Shown here one piece after another: positions 2,523 to 59,479 of a stretch of DNA of 64,000 bases; position 1 is the first letter of the stretch; every line of letters begins with the position of its first letter. This stretch comes from Astropecten irregularis. Taxonomy: Eukaryota > Echinodermata > Asteroidea > Paxillosida > Astropectinidae. The notes beneath the pieces are model-generated. The model did no database searches. It was not told where the DNA came from and saw nothing but the letters and a program-made list of their open reading frames with translations. The stretch is from contig OZ020254.1 of the NCBI GenBank assembly GCA_963971285.1, forward strand, positions 5,580,001 through 5,644,000. The letters run 5' to 3'. The position numbers and the translations under genes are program-made.

Positions 2523-2902
2523 CACTGTGCAATGCGATGTGCGATCATGCACGCCATGCCATACGCCATACGCCACTGCACTGCACATGCAATTTTTTAT
2601 CGGTCTCCCATTCATTTGCCGAACTCTGCACCGTACCACTAGCTGTGCAGAGTTAGGCACAGGCGGTAATTCTGTGATCGACGGCGAGATAAGGAATTGA
2701 ACTTTTTGTCTTTTCTTTTTTCATAGAAAAATTAAAAGGTGTTTAAAATACTTTGCACGAAATTCACTGCTACAACAGTACTAGTACTTTCTGATCGAAA
2801 CCTTTGTCTGCAGTTCAACTGGAGTGCCAAAATAAGGGCCTGGGACAAACATTATGTAACAATTATGTTACAATTATTATTATCTTTCCTGTCCACATAA
2901 TG

Positions 2903-3062
2903 TCGTTGTTTTACTAATTTCTGGATAAATACACATTTCAGGCGGAAACATCATAACAGTATGTTTCTACCACAACCATCTTCATATCCTGTAAGTTATA
3001 CGTACGTAAATCTGTGAACATTTCTGTTTTTGTTTTTTACCAAAGTATGATACTACCTTTAA
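2903..3062 (+). mobile_element. MITE family A, truncated copy (right half)
   Basis: It contains the family core: TTTCTGGATAAATACA, TTTCAGGCGGAAA, GTATGTTTCTACCAC, AAATCTGTGAACATTTCTG, and the terminal CCAAAGTATGATACTACCTT. The left half is missing. Confidence 0.6.
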
Positions 3063-3298
3063 TGAAACAGAACAAACATTGAAAACATGCTTGATAATTT
3101 CTTGATCATCCCGCTGCGCATGGAATCGGATTTCTGCCCCAGGTTTTGACATTGCAAAAAGTTGGTATTGTATATAGTCAATCGATCCCTGCTAGCTGGA
3201 AAATGCATTTCAATTATGTTTTATGCAAATAAAAAAAATATCTGGGATTTGAAAGTTCAGGGTTGCCTAATATTTGTTTACAGGTTACATCCCTATCA

Positions 3299-3412
3299 TG
3301 TTTGTTTAACACAAAGGATCCTATATTTAGGGATCCACCTACTATGCAGGGTACGCTAAAAAGGGATCCGGATCCGCAATTTTCGTGATCCTGTGCATTA
3401 AACAAACAGGCC
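3299..3412. mobile_element. MITE family E (GGCCTGTTTGT ends), degraded left end
   Basis: The right terminus AAACAAACAGGCC and interior GGATCCACCTACTATGCAGG match the intact copies at 12846-12963 and 48055-48162. The left terminus is diverged (atgTTTGTTTAACACA), and no clean target duplication is seen. Confidence 0.55.
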
Positions 3413-3485: not shown

Positions 3486-4053
3486 GTAACATTACTCATT
3501 AGGCTTGGTGAAATTAGTAAATAAAACTAGTACAGTAGTAGTAAAAGTAACACCATAGGGCTTATACGTTACCATGGTTATAACTGACATCTGTACATTC
3601 GAGTTGTGTTTGTATGATGAAGTGATTCATACTCAGCTCTCCCACTTTGCCAATTCTGATTTAGGCCCATAGGCCATATTTATTATTTCTTTGTTTGACT
3701 TTTTCTTTGCTTGCTTTGGCCTTTGGCTTTGCCTTTGATTTGGCATTGCCTTTGGCTGTGGAGGCCTGGGCCGTCAGTGGAATTCTTGCCAAAAAGGGAG
3801 TCTATTTTACATTTCATTATGGACCTGCATCAGAAAGTAACTGTGGCATCATCGTGGAATGTTCAGGGCCCGTATGATATCAACTGTATCTTGCAATGTC
3901 AATGTGAAGATGAAAGGTAATTCATTTTGGTAGTTGCGATGATTGTAAATTTGTAGTTGCGATGATTGTAACCCTATATGTCTGACATGGGGACTTTGAC
4001 CAATCCGGTCCCAATTGTCAGACCATTTTTATTTTTTGAGGTGTACAATCTGG

Positions 4054-5113
4054 GAATGCTGGTCAACTCGTACGCCGACCAACTCGTACGCCCCAACTCG
4101 TACGCTGACCAACTCGTACGCCGACCAACTCGTATGCCAACCAACTCGTACGCCAACCAACTCGTACGCCACCACCAATATTAAGACCGTAGACTGTAAT
4201 AACGAAATAAATAAAAAAAAATTTTGATGGAGTGGAGTGAGTGTGGAAAGCTTCTTTTTATAGTTTGTAATAACGAAATAAATGTGGTTTTTTTGAGAGA
4301 CTGGAAACCTTTTTTTTTTTGGTATGCACCTTATGGGATCGGTATTGTGTGAGTGGATAGTGCGTGCGGGGGCTCTAATTATTTGTAGTTTGTAATAACG
4401 AAATTCGTTGTGACTGGGTACCTTTTTACTATTTTTTTTTGTGATGCGAATTTCCAAATCTCTAGTACGTACGACAGTAATTACCTTTTTCATAATCTAC
4501 TGTAAATTGTAATCTACTATATCAGGTATGGTGCTCCCCTAGTCGCCAATTTTAAAATACTCTCCTAAAATCTCGATGCTGGAAAACTATACCAGCCGGT
4601 CAGTATCCTCCATTTCAGTCAGCCTACCGTAAAAAACACATTTTTAATTGATTCTGTAATTGCACCTTTGAACATCCTCGGATGGAAATGGCGCACAAGA
4701 AATGCAATCAATTATTAATTAATTAATTAAAATCCAACCTAACATTACTTTTGAGCACTTCCACATACAGAATGTTTCCTTTTATGTTCCTTTTATGTTC
4801 ACAAACGACATCCAATTCCACGTACATAATGCTTCCTTTATTTCCGTTTATTTTCACAAACGAGTTCCACATAGTGAATTTACAGAATGCTTCCTTTTAT
4901 TTTCACTCAACATGACAAAATCTACTGAAGAAAAAAACGGCCAACGTTTACAAACTACAGGCTTAATTATACGTGGCGTACGAGTTGTTTGGCGTACGAG
5001 TTGGTTGGCGTACGAGTTGGCTGGCGTACGAGTTGGTCGGCGTACGAGTTGACCAAACGGCGTACGAGTTGGTTGGCGTACGAGTTGGTCGGCGTACGAG
5101 TTGACCAGCTTCG
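4054..5113. mobile_element. Foldback (TU-like) transposable element
   Basis: Long terminal inverted repeats consist of tandem ~16-bp units (CTCGTACGCCGACCAA type). There are seven units at about 4065-4175 and eight inverted units at about 4974-5106. The outermost GCTGGTCAACTCGTACG is shared by both ends. The interior (4180-4970) has short direct repeats (TTGTAATAACGAAAT three times; TTCCTTTTAT..TTCACAAACGA) and no transposase. CAATCTGG(G) flanks both sides (4046-4053 and 5114-5121), consistent with an 8-9 bp target-site duplication. The layout resembles the sea-urchin TU elements as I recall them (outer domain of ~15-bp repeats, 8-bp duplication). Family membership is inference. Confidence 0.78.
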
Positions 5114-5424
5114 CAATCTGGGTGGTATTGTAAACCAACATGGCAGTATCTTAATGTGGGTCATTTAACTTGTTTAAATGGAAATCTTGTAAACATGGTA
5201 AGTACAACAAGTTCATTACTTGAAAATGTAAATCAACATTCTATCAACTTTGAACTGTATTTCAAATAATGTTCATCTTCCACTGGCTGCCCTGACTGGA
5301 TAAATCCTTGTGAATCAACCCATTGTACATTGAATGGAACCTACACGTAGTTTCAAATAACTGTGTATCGTAATTGTTTTTATTTGACATATTTTATTGT
5401 AGTTCACAACGTGAGACATCTGTG

Positions 5425-9646: not shown

Positions 9647-9730
9647 TACTTGGGTCATTCCACCAGGAATGAATAGAGAAGAGGTGGCTAGCTTCTTTTT
9701 AATACATAGACGTACTTTCTATTATCCTTT

Positions 9731-9960
9731 AAAGGTAATATCATACTTTGGTTTTTGTCAAAGAAATGCAGATTCATGGGCAAAGATATCAAGACATACA
9801 GTAACACACTCAGTCATCTGTGAAAATTTCAGTCCCACATGGTGCCCACTTTTTGAGAAAACAATGAAAAACAGCAACAGTATTTTTGAAGATTCAGAAA
9901 GATTTTCGGTCGTTGTTTGACTAATTTCTGGATAAATACATCGTTTGAGGCGGAAAAACT
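9731..9960 (+). mobile_element. MITE family A, truncated copy (left half)
   Basis: It starts with AAAGGTAATATCATACTTTGG and continues with AAGAAATGCAGATTCATGGG, CAGTCATCTGTGAAAATTTC, GTGCCCACTTTTTGAGAAAA and TTTCTGGATAAATACA, then stops before the usual right half. Confidence 0.6.
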
Positions 9961-20525: not shown

Positions 20526-21936
20526 TACCCATTGACATAGTAGACTGTGGCCAGGTTCAGTCCTGTGACCCTGATCATTGGACTGTACGTCTTTGGCCAT
20601 GTGACATTGATGTGACTGAAGGGAGGTACCAAGAGACAGTACTGTTGAGATGGATTTACACATCATGAATGTACATGTAGTGGACTCATTTTATGTTATA
20701 CGTATGGCAAAAGCATGTTTCATTCCCAATATCAAGCACTTTGCTTAATCCAACAAAACATAGCGTCTCCTACCACAAAATGTCGTAACTTTCATAGCTC
20801 AGATAAAAAAAAGCCAGAGTCTGTAAAAGTAAATTGTACTGGACTATAAAAACGAGTCTAGGCCATTCTTCAAGATGCTTTTGATTATATTTTATTTTAA
20901 GAATCTTCAAAGGCACTTGGCAAATAAATGGAATGAACATTATCTCTAACAAAGCCTTCATGAACAATTGACTATGTACAATATTTGCAATACCGGTATA
21001 TACATGTATATGTATGCATTACTTTCTTGTAAACTTAATGGTAATATCATACTTTGGTAGCATACCGAAACAGAAATTTTCACAGATTTATCTACAACTT
21101 ACAGGGTATAAAGATGGTGATGGTAGAAACATACTGTTAACATTTTTCTGCCTGAAATGCTGTATTTATCCAGAAAAAGAGTAAAACAAATTACCAAAAA
21201 CAATTTTGACAACGATGACAAGATTTAAGACATGTTTTCTCAAAAAGTGGGCACCGTATGGGACCGATATTTTTGCAGATGACTGTTATTGTGTTTTCAT
21301 TGATACCGAAGGCCTATTTGTTGCCCATGAATCTGCATTTCTTTGACAAAACCAAAGTATGAAATTACCTTTAAGTGACAGGTGCTGGATCTACTCTGCA
21401 AGACAGTGTCTCAAATATAGCAAGTCTGACAGTTTAAACTCTTCAAATAAGTAGAGGCCTAGAGGGGCATAAATTCAAATCTAATCTTGATTTGAAGCTT
21501 GACAACTTTGATAACTGAAGTTTGTTTAGTGTTTTGGCTGAAGTTGCTAACCACTGTACTTTTTAGCATGTTGAATTGTGAATGTCAATTTGTACTGCTG
21601 TTGTGTCAAAGTTGTATGGCATCCTATTATGTCACACAAAATATAAAACAGCTTGCCTGGACACACAGTAAAGTTTCACATTTACAAGTATTAGTATGCT
21701 CTTCAGAAATCTTTCTTTAGAAAACTATTTTGACAAAGTCAAACATTGTTTTATTTACAGTGGTAATTTTCCAGTTGTATTTAAGAAAATTGTCATTACT
21801 CTGTGAAAAGACCAATAAACCAATTTTCTTTTAAATGCGAGAACTATCTACACCCATTTTTATGTATCAAGACTTGTATTATGAAAGACTCATTTCGTTA
21901 TGGGCAGATCCTTGAGGTTCTTCAGCACGTCTCATT
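20526..21936. other. TRNT1-TMEM128 convergent intergenic region
   Basis: It contains the 3' ends of both genes (AATAAA at 20923 on plus; TTTATT at 21750 as a minus-strand signal) and one full family A MITE (21036-21374). I see nothing else recognisable. Confidence 0.5.
21036..21374 (-). mobile_element. MITE family A, near full-length copy (reverse orientation)
   Basis: The ends GGTAATATCATACTTTGGT and CAAAGTATGAAATTACCTTT are inverted. The interior, on the minus strand, carries the family blocks TTTCTGGATAAATACA, ATCATCTGCAAAAAT and GATTCATGGGCAAC. Confidence 0.65.
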
Positions 21937-24340
21937 TCAGATATTTGGTAGTAGACTGACAGTCACGATGACGCCCATAAACAATGTGAAGAGCATGAAG
22001 GGAGTCAGGAAACCATACACTGGCCATATGGCAATGTTGAGACTGGAAAAAATTAAAAAGGGAACGAGAATGGATACAGGTGAAATAATTTGAATTTAGG
22101 GGCTCAGTGCAGTGAACACCAAGATTAAATAATAGTGCTGTGGCAGTCTTCGGGAAAACGGACCAATCCAGGAAGTTCCGGTCACTACAAATGTAGCCAA
22201 TCCAGTAAGCCCTGTCCACTGGAAATGAGGGCAGTGAACACAGGATCCTCTCCAATGTAATACTACACATCGGTTCATTTGTGTAAGACAAAACAGTGCA
22301 TAGAATAAAGTAATTAAGACTTGTAAATTGGGCAATTAACTTATAATTAACAATAAGTGGAGGAGGTCCCCAAGAATCGGACCTTGCAGACTGGGGACCC
22401 CCCCAAGCCCAACAAACTCTGAAATTGTTCAGTAACAAATGGGGGCGGGACTTAAAGGATTGGTCTATTCTGGAGTGGGCTTCTGAACTAAGGGGGTCCT
22501 CGGTGCTCAGCTTGTGCAGACCACTGAAGTGTGGATGTTAACTGATACAAATCCAAGGCCCCACTCTAAGAGCTATTTTCTCTTGACTGAGACAAACAGA
22601 ACATGCATCTCTTCTGGTTGTTATTTTTCTATTCATTTATTTCTTTGAGATGTGGTTTTTCTTGACTTCATGCTCGGGACTTACCATATTGCACCAAAGA
22701 CGAATGCTCCTGTTGCCATGGGGATGGCCGTTGGGGATGCTTTGTCCCAGTCGTTGACCTTCTTGATCCAACTCAGGAAGACGACGAGATAGGAACCAAT
22801 AATAATGTGGATACCAATAAGAGTCAGGCCCACATACAGCCAGGACCTGCAATTAAAAACGCCCGACTTTACATTAGAATGACTATTGTTTGGGAGGAAC
22901 TTGAGGAGTCTTGTAAGACCAAAACAAGGACAACATCTACTGCTTCTTGCCACATTCTTGGTACAAATTTAGGTCTAAAAAGTGTGTAAACTTGATGATT
23001 TCAACATGCTGTTTCTCATAATTTGTGTCACATCGATGCAAGATTCTTTGATCTTTGAGAAAAACCTTCTTTTTTTTCATTTAATCATTTTTTTTGTGAA
23101 AACCAAATTTATGTCAGTGCAAACTATTGTATACTACAGGAAAGTAAGTGGATGAACAATGAACCCATAACAATGATGTTGTAAGATTTTGAAATCGATT
23201 TGGCAGAATGCCAATGTATTGTCGATATTGTATATACACACATATGTAAATATTACCTTAAATAATGTACCGGTGCGTGACATTGTTGAACTCACAGAAT
23301 GACACAGTGACTTTAATGTGATATAAAATTGTTACCATGCTAGTTTTCTCAGGTTATCTTATAACTAATCATTTTCCCATTGATAGGCCTAGTCCTGCTT
23401 GAATGGCCACATGTGAGAAAGTCAGGCACCGGTCTTATTGAGGACAATGTACCTGTTGATTCTGTGATCTTCCTTGATAGCTGGAATGAGATTAGTGTAG
23501 TATAGCAGGGCGAAGGATCCCAGTATCCACATCAGTGTTTGGATGTTGTATGGGGATCCCGGCTTGGTCTCTGTCTCTCCCGCCTCTTGTCGTCTCTGCA
23601 GTTCCTCCAAACGCTTCGGGTCAATATTCTTGATATCTGTGGAAGGTGAGCGGGGGAGGCATTATTAAACCTTAATGTGAGAATTCATTTCCTATTAAAA
23701 GTAATATCATACTTTGTCAAAGAAATACTGATTCATGGGCAAACATATCAAGGAAAAAAGGAAGATACAGTAAAAGTCATCTGTGAAAATTTCAGTCCCA
23801 TACAGTATCCACTTCTTGATAAAACAGTGAAAAAGTGCCACAGTATTTCTTAAGTCTTTTCTCTTTGATCTGTTTATTTTTGATGTTTAAAAGATAAAAA
23901 ATAATTTTGGTCACTGGTTTTACTCTTTTCTGGATAAAAAAATACAGCATTTCAGGCAGAAAAATTGTAACGGTATGTTTCTACCATCACTATCTTTATA
24001 CTCTGTAAGTTATAGGTTAAATCTGTGAACATTTCTGTTTTGGTATGCTACCAAAGTATGATAGTACCTTAAAGTGAGAAGTGTTAAAATTCCAGAAAGT
24101 AGGAAATTCTGATAAAACTTAAATAAAACTAAGCTGCACAGTGACACTGTTCACCTGTTCATTGAAACTGCCTAACGTTAGAAAAAGGGCGATAAAACCT
24201 GAAAATGACTTGAATTAAAATTTACCTCTCCCGTATGCTGCCATGAACACTTCGGCAATTCTCCTCCTCCGAAGATGGAACTCGTCTTCATCTTTTCTAG
24301 GTGCTTGTTGACGCTGTGTGTCGGTATGCATTTCAGCCAT
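21937..24340 (-). CDS. TMEM128: Transmembrane protein 128
   Basis: This is a small four-helix membrane protein of the vertebrate TMEM128 family, of unknown biochemical role and usually placed at the ER. The exons are 24340-24226, 23636-23453, 22846-22685 and 22042-21937, giving 188 residues (human 165). Predicted helices are about residues 70-90 (NIQTLMWILGSFALLYYTNL), 103-125 (LYVGLTLIGIHIIIGSYLVVF), 139-160 and 163-185 (GFLTPFMLFTLFMGVIV). The last helix matches the human FFTPLLLFTQFMGVV closely. The N-terminal 65 residues are hydrophilic and include RRRR at about residues 33-36. Intron 1 contains a full family A MITE. An upstream in-frame ATG exists, but 24340 (MAEMHTDTQR) gives the expected length. 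Confidence 0.85.
23696..24073 (+). mobile_element. MITE family A, full-length copy in TMEM128 intron 1
   Basis: The ends AAAAGTAATATCATACTTTG and CCAAAGTATGATAGTACCTT are inverted. All family blocks are present in order, including GATCTGTTTATTTTTGAT near the middle. Confidence 0.7.
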
Positions 24341-29500: not shown

Positions 29501-32500
29501 CTCTTTTGGGAGTGGTGGTTCTGGATGGAACCGAACCGGTGTAACTTGATGTTTTGAGCAGTATGAGCTCCAAACGTCATTTGGAGACTGCTTTAAGTAC
29601 GGTGCCATGCATGTCCAGTGAAGCAGAGGGAGGAAGGACTCAGGCTGCAGGTGCAGTGTATGAGGCAATAAGGCCTGAACTAGGGTATGGAATCTGTAGG
29701 CTTGTTGTTCATTCAGTTACTCAGTTACGCTTCTTGGCACTCACAAATTTATAAATTTCGCACCTAATTTTAGAATGCATTTTTGTTTAGCAGTGATTCT
29801 GCCGTAAATGGATCTGTGTCCAGATGCAGTGTCCACTCCCAGAACAACCATTCTGATGTCAAACTCACCAATCATCTTCCTGATTTGATGCAGCACAAAG
29901 CTTTGACCTTTGACTCTCAGGATGACAAATTCAAGTCCCTGGTACATGAATGCCTCGTTGCATTTGAACTCCTTGATATAGCGAATGGCGCTGGGGTCTT
30001 TGAAACCTCTATGGGAGAGAGGAAAATATCAGTGAATATTTCCAAGATCAAAAAACATGTTTTGGCATTTGGTTTGACTCTTTTCTGGATAAATATAGCA
30101 TTTGAGGCAGAAGATTTTTCACAGTATGTTTCTACCATTGCCATCTTTATACCCTGTAAGTTATCCGTGCATCTGTGAAGCTTTCTGTTTTGGTTTGTTA
30201 TTAATACCAATGTTAAACATGCCCTTTAATGGGTACAGGACAGGACAGGACTTACCCTATTTGGGCTTTGTAACAATGGCACTATTAAAGTAAATGCTAA
30301 TGAAGTAATACTGCATGGGAATTAAAGAGTCATTAAAATTTCAATGTCATTTCTTTCAAGAACAGTATTACATGACCTTTATGCCTTATGGCTAGGCTTT
30401 TATGTGAAAGTGTGACCCCTGGCATTAGGTTGATGTACATACTTGCCAGACGTGAAATTGTGGAAGTTGTGAGTCCCAACATAGAGTGACAGCAGGTCGC
30501 TCACCTCCTTCAACTTTTCAGCTGAAATTACAAAAAAATATGAGGAGAGAAAAATACTAGTAAGCAATAAATGTACAAGGTCTAGGGTTGGTAAAACCAA
30601 CCCTACTGATCACATTGTTTGGTTTGCTATTGCAGATGAATTGGGGTGTCCAAAACGGGATGTTTAAACACCCCAACACCCCTCTGACTAAAAACCATGC
30701 CGGCTTGAGAAGACAATAATTTTGTGAATAGATGAAAGTTCTTGTTCAGTCTAACTCCAAACCTGTGATTCTGTAGCTTTCAGTGGTTATCTGATCGACT
30801 GGCACAAAGGCGAATGTAGGAAGCATGTACATATAGGTGCGGTAGTCACAGTTGTGTTTGGAGTTGAAACTGGCAGTAGTCCTTTTCACCCCTTGAAAGC
30901 AAGATGAACAAAAAAAGAAACACAAACAAAACAATTTCATTGATAAGTTGAATTGAGTCATACCTCACACCAGTTGCTCTCCTATTTTTTAGGCCTTAGA
31001 ACATGGACAGAATACAGAGGACAAAAATTAAGAAGTTGGTTGATGAGACTTGGTAAATGAATTGAACTGGGCAGAATAAATGGCACGAATTCACAGTCCT
31101 TAAAGGGGGAACAATCTTCATTCTACCAAAGGAAAAATGGACCTACTGGGAAATAATAACAAGAATAATGCAAATTTATTACGCATTGAAATCTGTCAAA
31201 AAGATGCTCAAGAAGCAATAAAAAATGATACGATTAAACATAATTTACAAAAGATATGTGTTATGTAGGCACAGAAACTACAAAAAATGAATGGGAGCTG
31301 ATTTACGAAAGGTAGCTCTGTATGTAACGTAACGAATCCAACATGGATGCCAAAACAGCATGGTTATGGTGTAAACATAAAGTGCGCCCTCTAAAGTCCA
31401 AACGGGCCAGTTACATAAGCAATGAAACACAACAATATGAAGCAAAACAGTTAAATGGGAAACGATGATTCTTTGCTTGGGAGTAATTAGTTGCAAAGAA
31501 AAGGGCCAGCATGAGCAGTGAGCAGACTGAGCACAAGAATGATCACATCTGGAACTGTGAGTACATGGAATGAAGAAACTACCTATTAGCCATTTACCAA
31601 GAACTCTTACCCATGACTCTGATACACGGAGGTAAGTGCTCGTTGATCCTGTCAACGACGTCGTCCAGTAACCTCATCTTAAGCGACACAACCTGGCCAG
31701 ATGCTGAGACTCCTTTGTCGGTACGGGCACATCGCTGGAAGGCCATCTTGCCAAAGAACTGGGCATGCTCCTCGGTGATGGCCTCACACTTGACCAGTGC
31801 CGTGGCAAGATCTTGTTCAATGGTGAGCTCACCAGGATTTCTACAGAGAAGTTAGAAAGAATTTAACGGTTAGTTAAAAATGTCTTAATTCATCATGCAC
31901 TGTCTGTGTTAGGATAGAAACCTGATAAGGACAGGTACAATCATAAAAGGACTTTTTCGCAATTTTCAGATTTCACTAACGCATTGCGACCATCGTAAAG
32001 CCCAAATCCTTCGCTAAACGGAAAATCGATCGCTACTTTGTGGAGGAATTTTCCATTTTAATAACGATGGATTTGGGCTTTACGATGATCGCAAAGCGTT
32101 AGTGAAATCGGCCCCAGGTCTGAATACTGGGATCTTAAAGGAATTTCAAGGATACACCCAGCCATACTAGGACTTCCAAAGACTTCCAGGACAACTCAAA
32201 TACATACATAGTCATGATAGTGAGACCTATGAGAATTGCCAGGAAAAGTAGAGTAGAAAGGTACTGGTACACTACAACTTACTTCTGCATACCCTTGTAG
32301 CCTACTCCGGAGTAGGACAGCAACATGGCTACCTTCCTCTTGACCAGCTTGTTCAGGTTGGAACTACTTCCCTCATCCTACATTTGCCATAGAGAAACAG
32401 ACCGATTCGCACATTAACATTTCAAAATTACATGTACTTTCTTATACTTAAATTTGAGTCTCAGTCACATACATGTATGTATGTCCTTCCATTCCCCAAC

Positions 32501-33797: not shown

Positions 33798-33980
33798 GGT
33801 GATAGTTGCAAGGTGCGATCGGAGGATGATGATTTGTACCAAAACCCCATAATCATACCCTTTGGATATTTTGAAAATGAATATCTAGTATTAACAAGCT
33901 CCCCCCGTTGAAAGTCATCCCATTTCATTTATAAGGAATAAGGAAACTAAGATTATCCCACAGGCCATAAATGTAGTTGT

Positions 33981-34374
33981 TAAACGTACAGTACAGGATT
34001 TGTAACATATGCAAACAGTAATGTTCACAGATTTACGTATAACTTTCAGGGTATCAAGATGGTGCTGGTGGAAACATAGCGTTAAAATATTGCCACCTGA
34101 AATGGTGTATTCATCCAGAAAATAGAAAAAACAAAGACTGAAAAAACAGTTGTTATATTGGGGTAAGATCAAAACCATTACCGGTATGTTTTATAAGAAA
34201 AATTGAGTCGGGTGGGTTTTCGCCATTTTCTTGTGACTCAGATTTCCGATTGAGCTCAAATTTTCACAGGTTTATCATCTCATGTATATACACTGTACAT
34301 GTAGGATCAGACAAAGTGTGAGTGCTGTTCTGTGACCTTTCCCAATCATGTATCATACCTTTAACTTAAAATCT
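33981..34374 (+). mobile_element. MITE family B copy
   Basis: It matches 24728-25087 through ACAGTACAGGATT.GTAAC, ATTTACGTATAACTTTCAGGG, GGGGTAAGATCAAAACCATT, GAGCTCAAATTTTC and a CATACCTTTAA end. Confidence 0.6.
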
Positions 34375-35499: not shown

Positions 35500-37464
35500 T
35501 CAAACTTGTTTCCAGATAACTAACCACAACATGAGCCAATTTGGAAAGACAACCATTGTGGCCAAGCCGTAAGACCAGTTCCCAAATAGATAACCATCCA
35601 CGACTGCACTGTACAAGGCATGCTTGGACATGTGGAATGAGGTCTGCAATAATGCAGCAATGTCTAGATGAGATGATGTGGCTGCATTGAAGATCATGAG
35701 GAATACAAAGAGGAGGACTGGCGGGGAGATGAGAAGGAGAAGTAAGGCATTGAAAAGACGGAGCGGAGTCCTCGATGACGGCCTCACGACAGCGCTAATG
35801 GGTACCATTGCAACGCTGAGGAAGAATGCCAGAGAGAAGTTGATCATGGAGATGGCGGAGAGAATCACTGTCTGCCAGATCAGGGCAATGGATTTCAGCA
35901 GCTGCCACTCGGCTACCGCTTGATCTGGATCAGATGTGGGAGTCATCCGGCGACGGATAATGTGTGGGAACATGGCCGAGCCGACGAAGAGCCCCAAAAC
36001 GCCCAGGCTGACCGCCTCCTCCGGGGTTAGTTTGAAAGACTTGGCCAATCGAGCCATGAATAATTCTGGGCTCATGTACAGCAGGGCACCAGTCACTGAG
36101 GCTCCGATCAGGAGCGGGATGGTGGAATTGAACGGCCGGGGCACGAAGTCCTCTGTGCTTTCCGGAGCTACCTCTGGTTTCTCCTCTGAAGGATCTTCCT
36201 TTGATTCTTTTGCAGATTGAGATTTGAGGATTCTACCAGACTTGATCCATGAGGCAAGACCATTCAGTAAAGGGACCATCATCAGGAGGGCAAAGGGAGG
36301 CATGTACAGTCCGATGGAGACATACCGGTCACAATTTGGGAGGACGTAGAAGAAGAAGGACTGATGCAATCTCTCCAGGAGGTTGTTGATGCTTCTGATG
36401 ATGCCTTCAAGAACACGCCCTGCCACCTGCATATTCTTCCCTGGTTTCTTGGCAGGTATGGCCTTGATGGTAATTGCCTCAATGTGGTACTGGAGGAATA
36501 GTCCATGTACACCCCGGGGTTGACCGGATGCCTGGTGCGCCATGTTCAACAACATGGTCTTGGCGGATTTCTCAAAACCTTCCCTGGTAAGGCGATTGTA
36601 ACTGCTACCGTCCACTTGGCCTTGGAAGGCAACGGGCATCCCTTCCTTGATGCACATTCTCACGACTAAGTTAAAGAGATCCAAATTGGGGAGGTGACCA
36701 TTGATGCCTTCTGTCACCAGATCTAGGTAACTGATGTGTGGTGTCCCCATCTCAAGATTGACGGCACCCATGATGGCTCCACTGCGACCCTTCATGATTG
36801 AGGAGCTAATGTAGTCAGATGGGATGCCTTGGTAGGCCTCAAGCCATGCCTGCATTCCAATGTCTTCCTTGTCGACCACCAGGAAGATAAGATCCTTCGA
36901 CCAGTAGGTCTTAGTGTGGAAGAACCTAGCCAGTGACATCATAAGTCCAACCCCATACTCTGTCCCTCCCAGTTCCTTGGCCAACTTTCCACCGCGGAAA
37001 GGCACCATCATCACTATTGCTTCGGTACCTGCAATTCTAGGAGCTCTGAGAATGGCATAGACATTGGTTCCTTGGATAACCTTGGGCACCCGCTGATTCC
37101 CAACAACATCTGTCTCCAAGAATGGATGGTTGATGCTGAAATTCTGGGTGTAGGTGTCCAGTCCAATCTGTGTGAACTCAGTCTCCAGATATCCGACTGG
37201 CATCCCGTCATCACTGTCGATGGCCTTTTTGTATTCCTCTGCCGATAATTCCACGTTGTAACTGTTATCGGAGTACTCACGGTCCACCAACCCCGGCAGC
37301 AGAGCATTCTCTGAGAAGTAGGTACCTGCATTGAGCGTTGGGTAGGCAAGGGCAAGTAAGTAGGACACTCCGGCCACATAGCACAGGAGGCTCCCGACTC
37401 TGTAGAAACGGAGGATGAAAGTGGATAGCAACGCTTGTGTCTTAGGATCAGTCATGAGCCCCAT
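35500..37464 (-). CDS. GPAA1: GPI transamidase subunit GAA1 (GPAA1)
   Basis: GPAA1 is part of the ER GPI-transamidase (with PIGK, PIGS, PIGT, PIGU) that attaches GPI anchors to proteins. One uninterrupted reading frame encodes 654 residues (human 621). There is a short cytosolic N-terminus, a first transmembrane helix at about residues 22-42, and a large luminal domain of M28-peptidase-like fold (ILRAPR..GTEAIVMMVPF, DLIFLVVDKEDIGMQAWL, GAIMGAVNLEM). A C-terminal multi-helix bundle runs from about residue 380 to the end. A Lys/Glu-rich cytosolic loop lies near residues 415-445. No intron interrupts it, while every other complete gene here has four or more exons. ATTAAA is at 35472-35477 (minus). 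The start MGLMTDPKTQ fits the family. Confidence 0.95.
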   Translation of the reverse strand: MGLMTDPKTQALLSTFILRFYRVGSLLCYVAGVSYLLALAYPTLNAGTYFSENALLPGLVDREYSDNSYNVELSAEEYKKAIDSDDGMPVGYLETEFTQIGLDTYTQNFSINHPFLETDVVGNQRVPKVIQGTNVYAILRAPRIAGTEAIVMMVPFRGGKLAKELGGTEYGVGLMMSLARFFHTKTYWSKDLIFLVVDKEDIGMQAWLEAYQGIPSDYISSSIMKGRSGAIMGAVNLEMGTPHISYLDLVTEGINGHLPNLDLFNLVVRMCIKEGMPVAFQGQVDGSSYNRLTREGFEKSAKTMLLNMAHQASGQPRGVHGLFLQYHIEAITIKAIPAKKPGKNMQVAGRVLEGIIRSINNLLERLHQSFFFYVLPNCDRYVSIGLYMPPFALLMMVPLLNGLASWIKSGRILKSQSAKESKEDPSEEKPEVAPESTEDFVPRPFNSTIPLLIGASVTGALLYMSPELFMARLAKSFKLTPEEAVSLGVLGLFVGSAMFPHIIRRRMTPTSDPDQAVAEWQLLKSIALIWQTVILSAISMINFSLAFFLSVAMVPISAVVRPSSRTPLRLFNALLLLLISPPVLLFVFLMIFNAATSSHLDIAALLQTSFHMSKHALYSAVVDGYLFGNWSYGLATMVVFPNWLMLWLVIWKQV

Positions 37465-40400
37465 GATGGCAGGTGCAAAGACACTGGCTTCTCAGTCCAA
37501 ATACCAATAACGAACGTGATCTGCAGGGGGGCAACAAATGAAGCAAGACAATTCTCATCACCGTCAGCTCCAACTTTTAACAAGGTTTACAGAAAAGATG
37601 CCAAATCTTGTCAAAGGTCAAGAGTTCAAAGTGCCAGGGAGCTTCCTGCAAAAAGAACTGATCACAGCATTTTCTATTACATGTACAATAACACTTGACA
37701 GTCACATCTGAGTGGTGTGATCTCTCAAGCGTTCATTTGACAAAACTTCAAGGAATAATGACTGCCCAGTCAAATTTTCCAACAAACTGATTTTTGTAGT
37801 GGTCCATTACATCATAATGGTTAGTATAAACAATCCATAGCAAAAACAATATAACCCTCAAAATAGACACACCAGAAACTCTTTGTGCGTGTTTATGACC
37901 ATGGGTCCGGTGAATAGAAGGCAAACTTTGCTTTCGCAGCAGGAACCTTCCTCTAGCTACATGTACATTAGATAGAAGACATTTTCAATCTGAATTATGC
38001 TAATAAAAGTCTAAACATCTAAAACAGCTTAGCAAAATGGATATGAAAAACAACAAAGTGAGATGAACATTATTATGTTATGTGTACCATGGCAACAACC
38101 TTCACACTGATGTGAAACGGCTGCAGTATCATGTGATTGTTTATCAGACTGGTACTCTTTTCAAACTCCCTCAGTGAAACTGTGGAGAAGTCTGGGATTC
38201 AATCATCTCATTCTCTAGTCGGATTCCCCTTCAAAGATTTTTTCGTACCTCAAGTTCTGATGAGCCACAGGGTACATGTACATTGAATAGCATCCAGTTT
38301 ACATGTAAATGAACAAAAGATTGTTGTATTGTACTAGCTGCAGTAACTGTAGCGCAATATTATTCCTGACGTTGTTGTCGTATATGGGGCTACAGGACGA
38401 TGTATATGAAAATCACGAGTCGAAAATTCCCCACCCCTAAAATGACTGTTATTCAGCGATCTGTGGCATAATGACTCACCCTGGTGTTCCTGATGTCGTG
38501 AAGATGCACTCAGAAGATACAAAATTCAATTATCATTGCAGATGTCAACAAAAAAAGCAATTTTCAGCCCAAATCTTAGTACATACAAAAATGTCATCGC
38601 TCCATCTCGAGAATTGCACATGTGTAGATCAGTGGAGTAGACTGGTCCCGTTCGCTCCATTGCACGTAAATTGAATGTAGACTGGACAGGGTAGAGATCA
38701 TTCTTATGTATTTCCTTATTATTATTTTGCAAAGCACCATGGGAATTGTCTCAGAATCTGAGACTTTTTAGTATGTACTGAGATTTGGGCTGAACATTTC
38801 TCGTTTTGTTGACATCCGAAATGATAATTGCATTTTGTATCTTCTGTTTTGTGCAATATAGCACGACCATTCCCAGTAAGGGCTGACCCGTGTTAGCTAA
38901 ACGAATGCACCCTAAAACTAGTTAAGGAGTTAACGAATGCACCCAATGTGTTCGCCAGTGTCTAGCGCCCTCAGTCATCAGACTCGAGGTTAACGGCGCA
39001 CACACGCCATCCATATGCACGCCATGCACACACCGTACCCAACAACAGAACCCGTGCTGCGCCGCGTTGCAAGCAGGTGTAGGCTACGTATTCAGCACAT
39101 CCTTACTGCACAGATGTTAATGCAAGCTAATGATATGGTGTCTTATTACTTAGGTGGATTCATCTTCTTATCTCCAAAACCTTTTTTTCCGAGCGAATCT
39201 TACCGAAAATGCCTTCAAAGTCCCGTAATCAGGAGCTGGTTTTCCCCTCTGTGGTTCAATTCGATGGCGCTTTGGTAGTGAAATTTAGTCTGGTTCGTCG
39301 ATCGTCGAAATTTTGTGTCCATTCAATCGTGTATATAGCATAATGGGTACCAGACCACCATGGCCACATTTGACATGGTACCCAAACTTCTTATCGTATT
39401 TTCCTATGATCAGTCCTGTTCGGTACCCATTTATGGAAATATGAGGCCATACCATTCAGCAGCAAGGGTAAGTCATATTTCTTATATCCAATTATTGTTT
39501 TATCAATTGGTAATTTGTTATTGAAAAGAAAAAGGGAGTTCTCAATTATTAAAAAAAATACTTAAGTCACTAACATTTGTCCTTTTGAAATGTTTTCTTT
39601 GTCAAATTTTAAATGTCAAAAATGTGTAGACAAAATATATCCCCTATTCTTACAAAGTAGAAAGTTCAAAACACAGGTAGGTTACATATTGACGGCAGTG
39701 CATGTGCAGAAAGACGTGGGTGGATGTGGACCAGCCTCTTTTTTTTTTAGTCTGGGTAAAAATATTTCCTGGATTGCCATTTGCTTTGCTAATGCTACTT
39801 TTCTTGGGCCTGACAAAAACTTCCGGGCCGCATTAAACCAAGCTAAAGTGAAGTAAGTTTGGTGCATTTTCCTACCTCATTCTTAAAAAATAATGGCACA
39901 ATTTCTGGTCAAAAATGATGTGATGCCAGGTAACTCACTTGAGCAGCCAGGGCAGTATGTTTTTGTATGCACTGCACTTCTGGTTTTGCACCAGGCCTAC
40001 CACAGTCTGACACTACCTGGACTAGGGTAGGCCTAGTACATGTAGGCTTAGTAGTAAGTAGTAGTAGGCCTACATGTTTGTAGTACTAGGCCAGTATTAC
40101 TTTTCCTTTACTAGTTTTACTACACTACAGTTCTGACGTGTTGAGTGCACTTCGCGCAATTTTAATTTTAGAATTGTGCAATAAGATTTCCACTGCGCAC
40201 AATTTTGATGTCGCATCCTACAATTCCTAGTACCTAGACCCAGTATTAAACTGGGGCGCTGAACTCCCAGTTTTAGTTTTGGGGGTTGACGGATGGTCTA
40301 GCGCTCCAGAGAAACCCATAAAGTTTGAGATTTTGTATCCAGAAAAAATTGTACTGCATGATGATGATACTTTGATAGCGTACTGCCTTATTTAATTTTG

Positions 40401-43600: not shown

Positions 43601-46600
43601 TTTTATATCATTTTTCAAAAAAGCTTTATTTTCTGTTATCAATAGACATAATGTCTAGTTTCATCTTGCACTTTTTCTGTTCTTTGTTTCTGTTGCAGTT
43701 TGATATTAATGGGCTGCAACAAGATCACAAGTGAAGGTCTACTGCCGGTAAGATTAATGTTATGAAGAATAATATCACAGAATTGCCTGAATCAGAGCTT
43801 TCAGATACACGTCTTGGCATGCTTGGTGAGGAACTGCCCTGAATCTGACAATACTCGGATGTTTTGCAAAACATGTAACCATGGTCATAGATAAAATATT
43901 GAATGTTGGGTGATGAGTTATTAACATGCACTATGTTGAATAATTATTCTTCTGGGAACAGAGGTGGTTGTGAAAAAATATGGAAACTGCTTGTACATAC
44001 TTGATGTTCTGGTTCTTGTGTCTTGTCTACATGTAGTTAGCTCACCTCGGCTTCTTTTAAAATCATTTGCCTTTTCTAAAGATTTACATTTATTCACATG
44101 GTACCTTATTTACAATATCTCTGTGCAAACCTCGCCTCTGTTTCAAATCAGAGAAATAAATCTTTAAAAGCATTGATATCATTTACACATGTATACAAGT
44201 CTTGTTGACATTCATATTTTTTTTGTATTGTTGACGTTCATGTTTTTGTTTATCCAAATGCCAAATAGCTGTTCTCCCACTGCAAAAAGCTACAAGAACT
44301 GGACCTTTCATTTTGCTACAAGGCCTTAGAGCCTGCCAGTGCCAACGTACTAGAACACCTGCCCTTGAACGTTAACTGCCTGTGCCTGAGTGGACTGCCT
44401 ATAGAGGGCGCCGCACTCCACCGGGCGCTGGTACGGCTGACAAAGCTGAGCGAGCTGAGGTTATGTGGCGTCAACAACTTGTCGGAGGAAGAGATGGAGG
44501 AGGTATTATTTAATCAGCCCAAATTTACTTTCTCTCGGAAAATGGGAAACTACCACTATCCTGCCCAGTAGAATTCTACCTTCTAATCTGTTCCCAATTT
44601 CATGGCACTGCTTACTGTAAGTGTCAATTCCGCACTTGCAGAATCAGACAATTCTCTCCGTGCAGAGTTGTGTGCATGAGCGTAGTCCTCATAACTAAGG
44701 ATTCCTTGCTTACTCCTAGAATTCCATTTCCAACCCTGTAATCATTTATTAAGGATCGTGAGTGCAAAGGTCGGTAGTAAGAAGAGCCACAAAATTGGGC
44801 CATGTCGGCAGTGTGATAATTATTACTATACAGGGTGTCCCAGAAAAACCGCAACACTTGTGTCGAGAACTATTATATAAAAATTAAACTGTTTATCACT
44901 TCAAGATTCAGATAATGGATACAGCCATGTCTTGGCTATCACCATGTAGAATTTGAGCAAAATTGGACTGAAATTGAGAGGAAAAAACTAAGACTGAATT
45001 ACCCAACCTTAAAACCTGATTTTCATCTTCCTTTCATACACATTATGTGTGTATTGACCACTCTGCGTGTTATCCTTGCAAATTTGTTTGTAAGGAGTAC
45101 TCTTTCAATTGGTCACATTTTCGCCAATTTCAGCCCCATTATGCTTAAATTTTACATGGTGATAGCCAAGACATGGCTGTATCACATATCTGAATCTCAA
45201 AGTGATAAACAGTTTAATTTTAACATAATGGGTCCCGACATAGTGTTGCGTTTTTTCTGGGACACCCTGGATAGTAATAATAAGTGGTTTAGTTGGGAAA
45301 ATCAATATTTTAGCCTCAAGTGTTTAATTTATATGATATAAAATCTGTTGTGCATTTATATAGTTTTCAATTGATTTTAATGATAGTGAACTGCCAAAGT
45401 AGTCTGTAAAGTAGTGTATCATATAAAAATTTTTTTGCAAATTTTGTTTTTATGATCAGATTTTTCATAGCATTGGTGGTCAGCTGACTCTCCTGGACAT
45501 GAGTAGCTGCCATGAGTCCATGACTGACCACGCCCTGCGCTCCGTTATGAAGCACTGCACAGAGCTGGAAACCCTATGCATATCCTTCTGCCTCCGTCTT
45601 ACGGGGGAGTCCTTCATCAACTTAATACGGGACCCCAGGAGGGCCAAGAATCTCGTCAGTTTGAATCTCAACGGCATGAAAGAGGTGAGGATTGTGCTGT
45701 TAAAAAAGAGGACGAGCAATGAGTATTATTCAGCCAAATGGTTGGACCTGAACATTTGAATTTGCTCATCTTGTGTAAAATTATGCTTGCTGATATTGTG
45801 CATTTCAGACAAAATTTGCTTGAGTTTTCAAGATTCTCAGTAAAATTTACAAAGCTTATACATGTGTAACTTTCCCGCAGTTCAAAATGTCGATCTCGGG
45901 AAACACATCTTAAGTTTAAACCACACATGGTGTTTCCTGTGGTAAGTGTGGTATCCTGAATACCACAATACACCACAGTGTGGTTTTTGTGGTACATGTA
46001 ATGTGTTGTTTATGATCCAGTCCCCCTGTAGAGACTGTGGTAATGTGTGGTAAGGAGCACTTGTCTTATGTGAATGGTGCAGAGTGTCAGGGTTAAGCTA
46101 CACTTTAGATAGCTCCAGCACCAATTTTGTGTGTTTTTGTCCGTTTTCCGTAGATTTCCCACTCCATTCTCCTTGGCATTGTAACGTCCTGCCCTAACCT
46201 GGAGTGCATCCGTCTGGCCGGTTTGAAGTGTGTAGACGATGCCCTGTTGTTTGACTTGGCTTCCAACTGCCCTAAGCTCAGAGACGTCTCCATCAAGAGC
46301 TCCACTGGAGTGGATTCTCATCAGGTTTGCAAGATCTATCATGTTTAGAATTTCAAAATCGACAGAAATCAATGCGGGGTTAGTATCGCGGTGCTGGATT
46401 GGTTTGTACTGCAGTCAAAACGTTTAGCCCGATAAGACCAAACTGTAGACCCCACACTGAAAACTGCTGTAATATCTATCAAAAGTCAGATCCGGTATTA
46501 AGCCTGGGACCTTTCACAAAGATCGGCTCAGGCTCAGGCTCCATTTCTTGAACCCATTTTAAAATTATGCGTATCAAAATAGACTTTTGACTGCAGTTCG

Positions 46601-47938
46601 AAAAGATAGGTTTAAAAATGAAAACAGAGCTTCAGCTTCAATACAAAACCTCAACCTGTATTTTCAACATATGGTTCACAGAGCCAAAGCCAGAGCCGGA
46701 GCTGAGCTTTGAGAAAGCTAGCCCCCTGGTTTCTGCCCCAGCCACAGGCCGCAGACACTGATGTTCTTTCAGAAATTGTTGTTTTACAATTTGTTTTTCA
46801 TGCATGGTTTATTTTATGGCTGCTGTACAGTATTATTGTGTATAGTTAATACCGTATGAACTATTTGCCAATTATTGCAATAGGTGACAGATGCTGGAAT
46901 TCTGCACTTGGTGCGGTACTGCAACATACAGTATATAGTCATTTCAGGCATCCATAAGATCACCGACAAGAGTATCTTGGCTCTGGCCAACTCCTGCCCA
47001 GACCTCAAGAGCTTGTATGCATCTGGCTGCACTATGGTCACTGCTGCTGGACTCCACTACCTTAAGGTCAGTGGAAAGTTGTCATTCATGAAGATCTTAA
47101 GGCTAATATATGGTATAATACATGATTGGTAAAGGTCACTGAGCAGCACTCACACTTTGTCTAATCCAGCATATACATCAAATAATAAACCTGGGAAAAT
47201 TTGAGCTCAATCTGACATCTGAGTCATGAGAAAATAGTGAAAACCCGACTCAATTTTTCTTATAAAACATGACAAATGGTTTTGATCTTACCCTGAGATT
47301 AGATTCATTTTCGGTCTTTGTCCGACAAATTTCTGGGAAAAATACACCATTTCAAGCAGAAATATTGTGAAGTTTGTTTCTACCAGCACCATCTTCATAT
47401 CCTGAAAGTTATACGTAAATCTGTGAACATTTCTGTTTGGGTATAACCAATTCTGTACTGCACCTTTAAGCATAAAAGCCTTTTGTTCATAACATCAAAG
47501 ACTGAGTGTTGCCTGAGTGTTTTGCCCACCAAGGTTGGAGAAATTACGGGGAAGGCATCAATGCCGTGTAGAAACATTTAATCACAGTTTTAAAAAAAAT
47601 GTTTAAGTCTTACCATTATTTTTGATTGAAATAGAGAGTTTGCAGAAGTTTTGTCATTTCTCTCAGCAAGGTTGAATGTTTTCCTAACATATCTGCCCAT
47701 GTCAACTATTGTGGCATTGTTTTAAACATGGTTGTAGCATGGCATTGTATTAAAACACCCTAGACCGAATCATGAAACAGTTGACGTTTCACCTCTTTTC
47801 TGCTCTGTCCTCTTGTTGCAGGACATGTGCAACAACAGAGTCCATGTGGTGCACAAGATTCCCAATCTTGACCCCAACCAGGTCATGGGCAAGAATCTGG
47901 ACACTGGGGAATTTTGCCGTGTTGACCAGATGCACTGA
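40604..47938 (+). CDS. Leucine-rich repeat protein, AMN1/FBXL-like
   Basis: This is a cysteine-type LRR protein of 545 residues in ten exons: 40604-40904, 42197-42352, 42749-42867, 43032-43114, 43699-43747, 44269-44502, 45460-45684, 46154-46324, 46884-47066 and 47822-47938. All junctions keep frame. LRR units of about 25-28 residues recur (CEQVTDAVLMQLEA, LNDKSLTSVAENCPNL, MGCNKITSEGL, SCHESMTDHALRSVMKHC, ISGIHKITDKSILALANSCPDL). The N-terminal ~45 residues (LEDVCLQCIGQNL....RLLPTKHKEILLQRL) resemble the start of AMN1 and the VHL/BC-box region of some LRR ubiquitin-ligase receptors. No classical F-box is seen. The C-terminal ~38 residues lie outside the repeats. I do not recognise a one-to-one human orthologue. 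AATAAA is at 49070. Confidence 0.8.
40980..41567. mobile_element. MITE with TTA target duplication (PIF/Harbinger-like)
   Basis: It is 588 bp. The ends GGCCACATAAAcAtAAtaacTTGTTTAGCGTCC and GGACGCTAAACAA..ATGTGGCC are inverted. TTA flanks both sides (40977-40979 and 41568-41570). It has no transposase. The assignment to PIF/Harbinger rests only on the 3-bp TTA duplication. It lies in intron 1 of the LRR gene. Confidence 0.62.
41918..42048. mobile_element. Palindromic element, family C variant, in LRR intron 1
   Basis: The ends GGGCCGATTTCATAAAGC and TTTATGAAATCGGCCCC pair. The interior CTCCGCGACATGTCGC and ACTCTGCGACGC is unlike other family C copies, so only the ends are shared. Confidence 0.6.
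44831..45269. mobile_element. Tc1/mariner-like MITE with long inverted repeats
   Basis: The termini CAGGGTGTCCCAGAAAAA and TTTTTTCTGGGACACCCTG match the common CAGGGTGTCCC ends of mariner-type elements. The arms stay paired for about 170 bp (for example ACAGCCATGTCTTGGCTATC and GATAGCCAAGACATGGCTGT). It lies in LRR intron 6. A TA precedes the left end, but the right flank is GATA, so the target duplication is imperfect. Confidence 0.7.
45880..46105 (+). repeat. Dispersed GTGGTA/TACCAC repeat, copy 1
   Basis: It contains AAACCACACATGG, GTGGTATCCTGAATACCAC (itself palindromic) and TTTATGATCCAGTCCCCCTG, then AGAGACTGTGGTAATGTGTG. Copies are at about 48625-48835 and 51160-51250. It lies in LRR intron 7. 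Confidence 0.6.
46510..46725. mobile_element. MITE family G copy in LRR intron 8
   Basis: GGCTCAGGCTCAGGCTCC at the left is inverted at the right (GAGCCAAAGCCAGAGCCGGAGC). Interior AAACAGAGCTTCAGCTTCAAT is shared with 62977-63208. Confidence 0.6.
47111..47469 (-). mobile_element. MITE family B copy in LRR intron 9
   Basis: It reads on the minus strand from AAAGGTGCAGTACAGAATTGG through GGGTAAGATCAAAACCATT and TTGAGCTCAAATTTTCCC to ACCAATCATGTATTATACC. Confidence 0.6.
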
Positions 47939-48835: not shown

Positions 48836-49685
48836 CCCCCCACATAAATAAGTACCGGTAAGTCAGTTTGTTTTGAGAATTTAATATCTGCTTCTTATGC
48901 TATTCTTCAGGGATGTGAAATCTCCTATTTTTATCGGATGTCTGATTTTTTTTTTTAACTCAAACAGCAAATCTCCAACTTTATTTCGAAGTAGCTTTCA
49001 CATCCCTGTATTCTCATTGCAAATTAGTTTTTTTTTTAATTTTTTCTATCTTTTTTTTTCAAACAGTCAAATAAATGAATGTCATAATGAACGACACATG
49101 TCTGCACATCCAATTAAAACTGTATATAAGAGTAAAGTATTTTAGACTCATTTTGTTCGAGCCCTTGACATTTTACCCTCATGCAATACTTTTTAGAGAT
49201 ATTTTACAATATAGTTTATAGTATAATGGATATTCTGTTTTGAAATAGGACAAATTTGGTATATTTGTAAAAGTAGTTTTTTCCCTTACATCTGGAGCAG
49301 ATATGTACATGTTCATAGAGTAGTGTACTGTACTTCACTGAAGATTATTAAAATCTGAAGACAAAAACTTTGAATTAAGTTCAATCTTACTCCTTGCAAG
49401 CACAGCCAATCTGTTTGCTAAACTTTTATATTTTTTTTGTAATGGAGGTTTCTGTTCACTGCAGTTCTTCTATGCTGCGAGCATATGCAGTTTATCAATC
49501 TTGCTGCAATATTTGATTTTTGTTTTTTTCAATCAAAAGATACTTTTTGTAAGCTTTGTTGAAGTTTTACCTTTTCATGCGTATGCACATATCCATTCTA
49601 TGCACTTGATTGCCTGTCCACAAAGTGATACATACCATTAAAAGTAATTCAATCAATTGTTATTCCTATTTTCAAGGGCTGGTCT

Positions 49686-50062
49686 TAAAGGTAGTATCAC
49701 ACTTTGGGTTTTGTCAAAAAAGTACAGATTCATGGGCAAAAATATAAAGGAAGATACAGTCACAGTTCTCACAGTCATCTGTGAAAATTTCAGTTCCATA
49801 CTGTGCCCACTTTTTGAGAAAATTGTGAAAAACGGCCACAGTATTTCTTAAGTCTGTTCTCTTTTATTTTTGATCTTTTAAAAGATCAAAAAGATTTTTG
49901 GTCGTTGTTTTACTAATTTCTGGATAAATACAGCTTTTCAGGCGGAAACATTTTAACGGTGTGTTTCTACCACCACCATCTTCATACCCTGTAAGTTATA
50001 CGTCAATCTGTGAACATTTCTGTTTTGGTGTCTTACCAAAGTATGATACATGTATTACCTTT
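49686..50062 (+). mobile_element. MITE family A, full-length copy
   Basis: The ends AAAGGTAGTATCACACTTTGG and CCAAAGTATGATACATGTATTACCTTT are inverted; the central TTTTTGATCTTTTAAAAGATCAAAA is palindromic. A further end fragment (AAGGTAATATCATACTAAGG) abuts the right side at 50063. Confidence 0.7.
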
Positions 50063-52334: not shown

Positions 52335-52698
52335 GTTGTCTATATGACAGTTTGATTTTTGTCAAAGAAATGCAGATTCATGGGCATAAATACCAAGGAA
52401 GATACAGTAACAGTCATCTGTGAAATTTTCAGTCCCATGAGGTGCCCACTTTTTGAGAAAAACAGTTAAAAACGGCCACAGTATTTTTAAAATCTTTTCG
52501 CTGTTGTTTTATCGTCTTTAAAAGATCAAAATTGGTTTTGGTCACTGGTTTTACTCTTTTTCTGGATAAATACAGCATTTCAGGCAGAGGAAATTTAGAG
52601 GCATGTTTCTACCATCACCATCTTCATACCCTGTACGTTAGAAGGTAAATCTGTGAATTAAATTTCTGTATGTTACCAAAGGATAATATTACCTTTAA
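52335..52698 (+). mobile_element. MITE family A copy with degraded left end
   Basis: It contains GAAATGCAGATTCATGGGC, CAGTCATCTGTGAAATTTTC, GTGCCCACTTTTTGAGAAAA, TTTCTGGATAAATACAGC and ends CCAAAGGATAATATTACCTTT. Confidence 0.65.
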
Positions 52699-53200
52699 TG
52701 CACACCAATGTGTAGTATACTCTGTATTGCATTGGGTGCAACAATAGGACCTAAAGTCCTTCATTTCATTAACTGTTTATGCACAGTCACCGAGTTCTTG
52801 TTATGGCAAAGTGTTACAGTATGACAACATTTTAGAAATTCATTGTTAATAAAACCTGACGTTTGAATTCTGGAATTTGTGACGGGAAAAAGCTCTTTAA
52901 TTGGATTCAGAGTTGTCCTGACAGATTGCTCATTCCCGGAATGTTGAAAGAAATGATACCAAAACGCTCTTAAATTTACTTTTTTTTAAATTGTGTTATT
53001 GATTCAGCATCAACACAATGAGACTTGGTACTACATGTATTAACTGTTCCACATTCAATTGGAAATTACAAAACCTCTGAATTCTTAATTTTAAGAAAAG
53101 AACACACTATTAACTCTTTTTAAAAAGCATTTAAATTACTGTTGTCATTTAAAGGTGAAAACAGATAATTATTTTTACAATTTAACATCATAACCTTTAC

Positions 53201-57799: not shown

Positions 57800-58033
57800 G
57801 GGCCAATTGCATATATATAGAGCTGCTTAGCACAAAAAATTGCTTAGCACAGAAAAAGCTTGCCCAATAAAACAAACCACCATTGAAAATTCCATTTGAT
57901 ATTCATGGTCATCGACCAACAGCCAAAGAACAATTGCAAGTGATACACAACACACGGAAATTTGGTTGTTAATCCTGTTTTTACTAAGACAGAAATATCA
58001 TGCTTAGGGCGAATTTTTGTGCTAAGCAGGGCC
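57800..58033. mobile_element. MITE family D next to the HTRA2 start codon
   Basis: It starts about 28 bp upstream of the HTRA2 ATG with GGGCCAATTGCATATATATA and AGAGCTGCTTAGCACAAAAA. The inverted right arm is TTTTTGTGCTAAGCAG. Interior AACAAACCACCATTGAAAA, AGCCAAAGAACAATTGC and TTGTTAATCCTGTTTTTAC match 59241-59479. Confidence 0.65.
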
Positions 58034-59240: not shown

Positions 59241-59479
59241 GGGGCCGATTTCATAGAACTGCTTAGCACAAAAATTTTCTAAGCATGACATTTCTGTCTT
59301 AGTAAAAACAGGATTAACAAACAAATTTCCGTGTGTTGAGTATCACTTGCAATTGTTCTTTGGCTCTTGTCGGGCTGGCCATAACATTTGGAGTTTTCAA
59401 TGGTGGTTTGTTTTATTGGGCAAGCTATGTTTGTGCTAAGCAATTTTTTGTGCTAAGCAGCTCTATGAAATTGGCCCCT
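59241..59479. mobile_element. MITE family D, full-length copy
   Basis: GGGGCCGATTTCATAGAACTG and CAGCTCTATGAAATTGGCCCC are inverted, with inner CTTAGCACAAAAATTTTC and AATTTTTTGTGCTAAG. It is the best-preserved family D copy in the window. Confidence 0.7.

Follow-up and report, generated by a model that had tools for sequence, protein, structure and literature searches.

The window analysed here is a 64,000-nucleotide stretch of the Astropecten irregularis genome (contig OZ020254.1, positions 5,580,001 to 5,644,000 of the forward strand). An intron with GT...AG borders, picked by eye, separates two coding exons of a PAAT-like (C10orf88-like) gene, the two-exon reading of which matches Pfam PF14958 (E 2.9e-18), and a foldback element of 1060 bp is seated within this intron. 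The features of the locus are as follows.

3917-5402, plus strand: host intron holding the element, between two coding exons
4046-4053, no strand: left target-site duplication CAATCTGG, the same as 5114-5121
4054-5113, plus strand: foldback element, 1060 bp, very probably a non-autonomous Mutator-like element
4054-4063, plus strand: left terminal motif GAATGCTGGT, exact in 30 of 32 loci where a left end was identified
4064-4173, plus strand: left array of seven units, with steps of 16, 14, 16, 16, 16 and 16 bp
4174-4199, plus strand: inner part of the left inverted repeat, past the array, aligning to the inner right end
4439-4440, no strand: putative deletion junction, where longer elements carry the transposase gene, placed from the alignment with the longer member L048
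4948-4974, minus strand: inner part of the right inverted repeat, past the array
4975-5103, minus strand: right array of eight units, with steps from the outer end of 16, 16, 20, 16, 16, 16 and 16 bp
5104-5113, plus strand: right terminal motif ACCAGCTTCG, exact in 34 of the 40 loci with a right end found
5114-5121, no strand: right target-site duplication CAATCTGG

Elsewhere in the window, a 663-aa open frame on the minus strand (35500-37491), with no visible intron in that stretch, matches Pfam Gaa1, a GPI transamidase component (E 1e-146). Three other inverted-repeat elements lie at 57817-59466, 44819-45281 and 38511-38846, with arms of about 215, 158 and 85 bp that are 88-89% identical, and no duplication of 6 bases or more was found near their ends. 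A dispersed repeat family, up to about 380 bp in length, is present in many copies and in both orientations.

2902-3062, 9720-9958, 21033-21377, 23690-24078, 30036-30200: dispersed repeat copies
33980-34365, 47112-47469, 49684-50049, 52342-52700, 54377-54562: dispersed repeat copies

Borders and inverted arrays of the element

The termini of the element were fixed at 4054 and 5113 by comparison with other copies, in which the duplication directly abuts GAATGCTGGT. The original prediction had drawn the borders at 4046 and 5121 with a target duplication of 8-9 bp; the duplication itself stood, its length was settled at 8 bp and the borders moved inward accordingly. A 9-bp duplication was rejected for the window copy, as the ninth G on the left is a base of the conserved left terminus and, because it belongs to the element, its agreement with the right side is coincidental. 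Among 200,000 random flank pairs from the window, an exact direct repeat of at least 8 bases lying no more than 5 bases from both ends occurred 161 times, and one of at least 9 bases 48 times.

Both ends are built from a 16-bp word, CAACTCGTACGCCGAC. With up to two mismatches allowed, CAACTCGTACGCC matched 15 times in the window, all within the element, against 0.30 matches expected from shuffles. The seven left and eight right units in opposite orientation that had been predicted were recovered, running from 4064 on the left and up to 5103 on the right, and the steps between them are mostly 16 bp; the left array has a single 14-bp step and the right array a single 20-bp step. Beyond the arrays, the inverted repeat extends towards the interior by about 26 bases per side, to about 4199 and 4948. 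The window copy has the mark of foldback elements, long inverted repeats in which tandem subrepeats make up an outer part and an inner part follows, and the unit arrays together with the inverted repeat confirmed the earlier description of a foldback element with minisatellite-built ends. Its interior is non-coding as far as tested: the 155-aa stop-to-stop frame across the left array had no Pfam match at E values up to 1, and no MULE transposase domain was found with Pfam in the copy itself, which agrees with the earlier statement that it encodes no transposase.

The TU foldback elements of sea urchin carry tandem units of about 15 bp in the outer inverted repeat and make 8-bp duplications, and the likeness between them and the window element would be one of architecture only. 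We consider it quite improbable that the element belongs to the TU family in the strict sense, that is, to the same lineage: a sea-urchin foldback element (Liebermann 1983) is listed among the foldbacks in PMC4079207 and the design is similar, but architecture alone does not show descent, and a literature search on TU and sea-urchin foldback elements found no description of TU.

Longer relatives and the origin of the window copy

Three longer members with the same two ends were found in the genome, L048 (3348 bp), L049 (4574 bp) and L050 (3611 bp), with the duplication TTGTAATAG in L048 and L049, which share flanks, and GTGTAGAA in L050. All three have a transposase gene on the opposite strand with a related coding stretch: the L048 frame of 398 aa and an L049 frame match the Pfam MULE domain PF10551 (E 2.1e-10 and 2e-11, respectively), and in L050 the same coding stretch is split over frames. 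The presence of a MULE domain between the family ends in L048 and L049 marks the family as very probably Mutator-like. Upstream, in a frame separate from the MULE frame, a PHD finger (PF00628) was found in L048 (E 2.5e-5; 24.6 bits against a cut-off of 24) and, marginally below that cut-off, in L064 (E 6.6e-5, 23.3 bits). L064 is a fragment with six left-type units; in the 4.6 kb examined, it has neither a recognised left terminus nor a right array. In the alignment of catalytic positions, it retains D, D, C-x2-H and E. The catalytic E position falls beyond the frame in L048, L049 and L050, and no two-ended copy with an unbroken transposase was seen, as the L048 frame stops before the E position and the coding stretches of L049 and L050 are split between frames.

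A search of the genome with the MULE profile gave 33 matches, with all 59 candidates scored. Units are present in three of the ten MULE loci returned, namely L064, L065 (the same as L049) and L066 (the same as L048), and L050 is also among the MULE-profile matches listed. The original prediction had placed a trans-acting source elsewhere in the genome, and this is borne out in so far as L048, L049 and L050, with the same ends, carry a MULE gene, which is broken in the copies seen. A weak match of a low-complexity L048 frame to a viral-envelope Pfam family, below the cut-off, was taken as chance. A second MULE group (L059, L061-L063), about 43% identical to L048 and with stop-free frames of 508-514 aa, lacks the 16-bp units; L061 combines a FLYWCH finger with the MULE domain, and L059 has Q at the catalytic E position.

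Bases 1-395 of the window element match bases 1-450 of the L048 element at 73%, and bases 387-1060 match bases 2670-3348 at 92%. These matches lie to either side of the gene in L048, so the window copy most likely derives from a gene-bearing element by deletion and is non-autonomous; loss of the gene through an internal deletion near 4440 is the simplest reading. With left parts only 73% alike, L048 is to be seen as a relative and not as the immediate parent, and no exact shared block was found at the putative deletion junction between the window copy and L048. The window element is very probably a non-autonomous, internally deleted member of a foldback Mutator-like (MULE) transposon family.

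The longer members would supply the transposase in trans, and it is their MULE transposase that would have moved the window copy. The enzyme would attach to the 16-bp words repeated in each end, the bound ends would be brought together and cuts would be made outside the terminal motifs; the piece would then be inserted at a new site through staggered cuts 8 (sometimes 9) bases apart, the repair of which would leave the target duplication. Each 16-bp unit is a putative transposase-binding site. This course of events follows what is known for the superfamily, while the sequences themselves display the conserved ends, the duplications, both empty sites and the gene-bearing relatives. For Galileo, of the P superfamily, repeated units are reported as extra binding sites, as cited in PMC4079207.

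A foldback structure can, according to PMC4079207, arise in several superfamilies, and the element might in principle have no relation to the MULE genes and belong instead to another superfamily that makes 7-9 bp duplications (P/Galileo, hAT or Merlin); Merlin duplications are also 8-9 bp (PMC8101967). This is very unlikely, as two-ended members with the same termini carry the MULE domain at the E values given above, and the ends of Merlin are described in PMC8101967 as 5'-GG, in contrast to GA and CG here.

Copies, target duplications and empty sites

A copy search of the species' own assembly (475.7 Mb, 168 contigs) yielded 182 matches, and 40 of the 1623 first-look candidates were scored, so that the sample leans to close copies. 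The edge alignment comprised 40 loci, the window copy and 39 further ones, in which L021, L022 and L028 (false left ends) and L041 (right end only) were replaced by the longer stretches L048, L049, L050 and L055; the best pair was taken where a locus offered several candidate ends, which matters for L018 and L033. Both ends, with at most two substitutions, were present in 32 of the 40 loci, and the other eight, with one end only, were left out of the duplication count. An exact 8-bp duplication flanked 23 of the 32 two-ended loci and an exact 9-bp duplication four (L023, L048, L049 and L055, with L048 and L049 sharing flanks); one locus (L015) had a duplication with one mismatch and four (L019, L025, L032 and L043) had none. 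These are the target-site duplications of 8-10 bp expected of MULEs, and many copies with duplications is also what the original prediction had anticipated for the genome; as to its expectation of an inverted arrangement, 32 of the 40 loci keep both ends and eight do not. Around the right-end-only loci L051-L054 and L056, no left end was found within about 9 kb and no transposase match was obtained. L055 (C20:7569700-7579600, reverse) has its family ends 8428 bp apart with the 9-bp duplication ATTTTTATT, and there was no transposase match between them.

Two places within the window preserve an unoccupied target, each in a repeat copy related to one that is filled elsewhere.

1455-1462, no strand: unfilled target GGTTAGTC in a dispersed repeat, which in L013 contains a family copy
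38462-38469, no strand: unfilled target TGTGGCAT in a dispersed repeat, which in L040 contains a family copy

When joined, the flanks of L013 align to the 1455-1462 region at 96.4% across 477 columns; the joined L040 flanks align to the 38462-38469 region, gap-free, at 89.1% across 257 columns. Each alignment contains a single 8-bp target, and each empty site lies in a repeat copy related to the filled one and is not an allele of the filled place. Across the genome, the exact 23-base right terminus occurs 92 times (42 forward, 50 reverse), over many contigs, and the exact 21-base left terminus 365 times (258 forward, 107 reverse), with 0 matches for the control patterns. That the structure is a host minisatellite, or an inverted duplication formed locally, which expanded where it stands without ever transposing, and that the CAATCTGG match is due to chance, has next to no probability: the units are short and tandem, and register slips do occur, as seen from the 14- and 20-bp steps, but the idea is refuted by the 23 exact 8-bp and four exact 9-bp duplications among the 32 two-ended loci, the two empty sites and the dispersal of the 92 exact right ends.

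The nearest copy to the window element is L010, with 97.9% identity over 807 interior bases; its duplication, GTTTCCCA, differs from that of the window copy, and no similarity was found between the flanks of the two. The suggestion of a recent insertion is plausible. In a right-hand interior stretch, 41 rows, which include loci fetched twice, lie 0.004-0.07 from their consensus with a pairwise median of 0.053; these figures are divergences and not a date. Base counts from 20 target sites showed nothing striking as to target preference, and a two-unit pattern gave 0 matches in collections of viral contigs and genome contigs, both of which may omit the element's own genome.

Here, a non-coding foldback element is linked to transposase-bearing relatives in one genome, together with duplications and empty sites. 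Many foldback families have no such transposase link, for example Tetris as described in PMC4079207.

Known foldback systems, unit spacing and satellite arrays

Foldback Mutator-like elements are a known kind, represented by Muta1 and Tm1, and the enzyme of the longer relatives points to the Mutator superfamily; as described in their sources, these two have the closest architectures that we found in print. Muta1, a MULE of 3198 bp from Aedes aegypti with a DDE transposase, is classed as a type 2 foldback; it has intact copies and shows activity in yeast (PMC5225508). In the description given there, it shares with the window family duplications of 8 or 9 bp, and its inverted repeats consist of a 10-bp terminal motif and nine copies of a 12-bp repeat separated by 3-4 bp spacers, a step of 15-16 bp. 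The terminal motif of Muta1 is an imperfect palindrome, whereas the two terminal motifs of the window family differ; the window family also has the upstream PHD finger, and no intact copy of it was seen. This comparison is one of described features. Tm1, a Mutator/foldback element of root-knot nematodes, likewise has asymmetric terminal motifs outside the inverted repeat, tandem units of 13-15 bp in varying number, and both non-coding and transposase-coding members (PMC3169594). According to the same source, it differs in its terminal motifs, which are 7 bp and of other sequence, in its duplications, mostly 9 bp (8-10) against 8 bp here, and in its transposase, described as Phantom-like.

The Repbase family Rehavkus resembles the window family in its PHD finger, minisatellite and MULE-like structure (PMC6446971), and a PHD finger is present in L048 and, just under the cut-off, in L064. 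Compared by description, Rehavkus is different in having the minisatellite before the 3' repeat only, 9-bp duplications and a distribution in arthropods and annelids (PMC6446971); in the window family, a 9-bp duplication was found in 4 of the 32 two-ended loci and an 8-bp one in 23. The MULE survey in that paper reports limited evidence in chordates and no MULE transposase in the lancelet sequences it examined.

The spacing of the outermost units is fixed and differs between the two ends. Outer steps of 16 and 14 bp are kept in 30 of 32 left arrays (exceptions L012 and L025), and steps of 16, 16 and 20 bp in 30 of 40 right arrays (exceptions L010, L018, L029, L031, L032, L033, L037, L039, L046 and L050); these figures count loci and not independent events, as L029/L031, L034/L039 and L048/L049 share flanks. 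The outer spacing is constant while the total varies, since left arrays have 4 to 10 units and right arrays 2 to 16. This asymmetric spacing may stem from shared ancestry as well as from function, and it suggests a rule, open to testing, by which the two ends would be distinguished.

The surplus of left termini in the genome is due, at least in part, to satellites. Of 100 listed left ends, 46 fall within a single C9 array (L068, 23.979-24.147 Mb) and five within one on C12 (L069, 20.392-20.397 Mb). A junction sequence common to these two arrays occurs exactly 189 times in the genome (131 and 58 on the two strands), and a third array, on C22 (3.630-3.688 Mb), was recognised from the junction places listed only; among the right termini listed, none falls in the C9, C12 or C22 arrays. 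The monomers, 1671 bp on C9 (TRF: 2.5 copies, 100%) and about 1248 bp on C12, each consist of one left end followed by non-coding DNA, are 90.7% identical over 740 columns and had no Rfam or tRNA match. These one-sided satellites represent a transposon end entering satellite DNA. The Drosophila virilis foldback Tetris is comparable: its inverted repeats contain tandem units, its duplications are 8-10 bp and part of it occurs in satellite arrays. As PMC4079207 describes it, the units are about 220 bp, no transposase was found and the satellite is made of the unit itself; in the present arrays, the whole left end occurs once per monomer of 1.25-1.67 kb.

As the outer spacing is fixed but different at the two ends (16, 14 versus 16, 16, 20) and the terminal motifs are unlike, the two ends might be functionally unequal, the left being the stronger recognition or nicking site, and a solo left end in unrelated DNA, cut again and again by the transposase, might have seeded the satellites by rolling-circle or re-replication. 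We regard this as an improbable suggestion; if true, it would explain why left ends stand alone in the satellite monomers. A lone copy outside the arrays (L070, C8:13194900-13197400) comprises most of one monomer and has its start and its end at the same position on the monomer circle, as would be expected of a founder or of a re-inserted circle.
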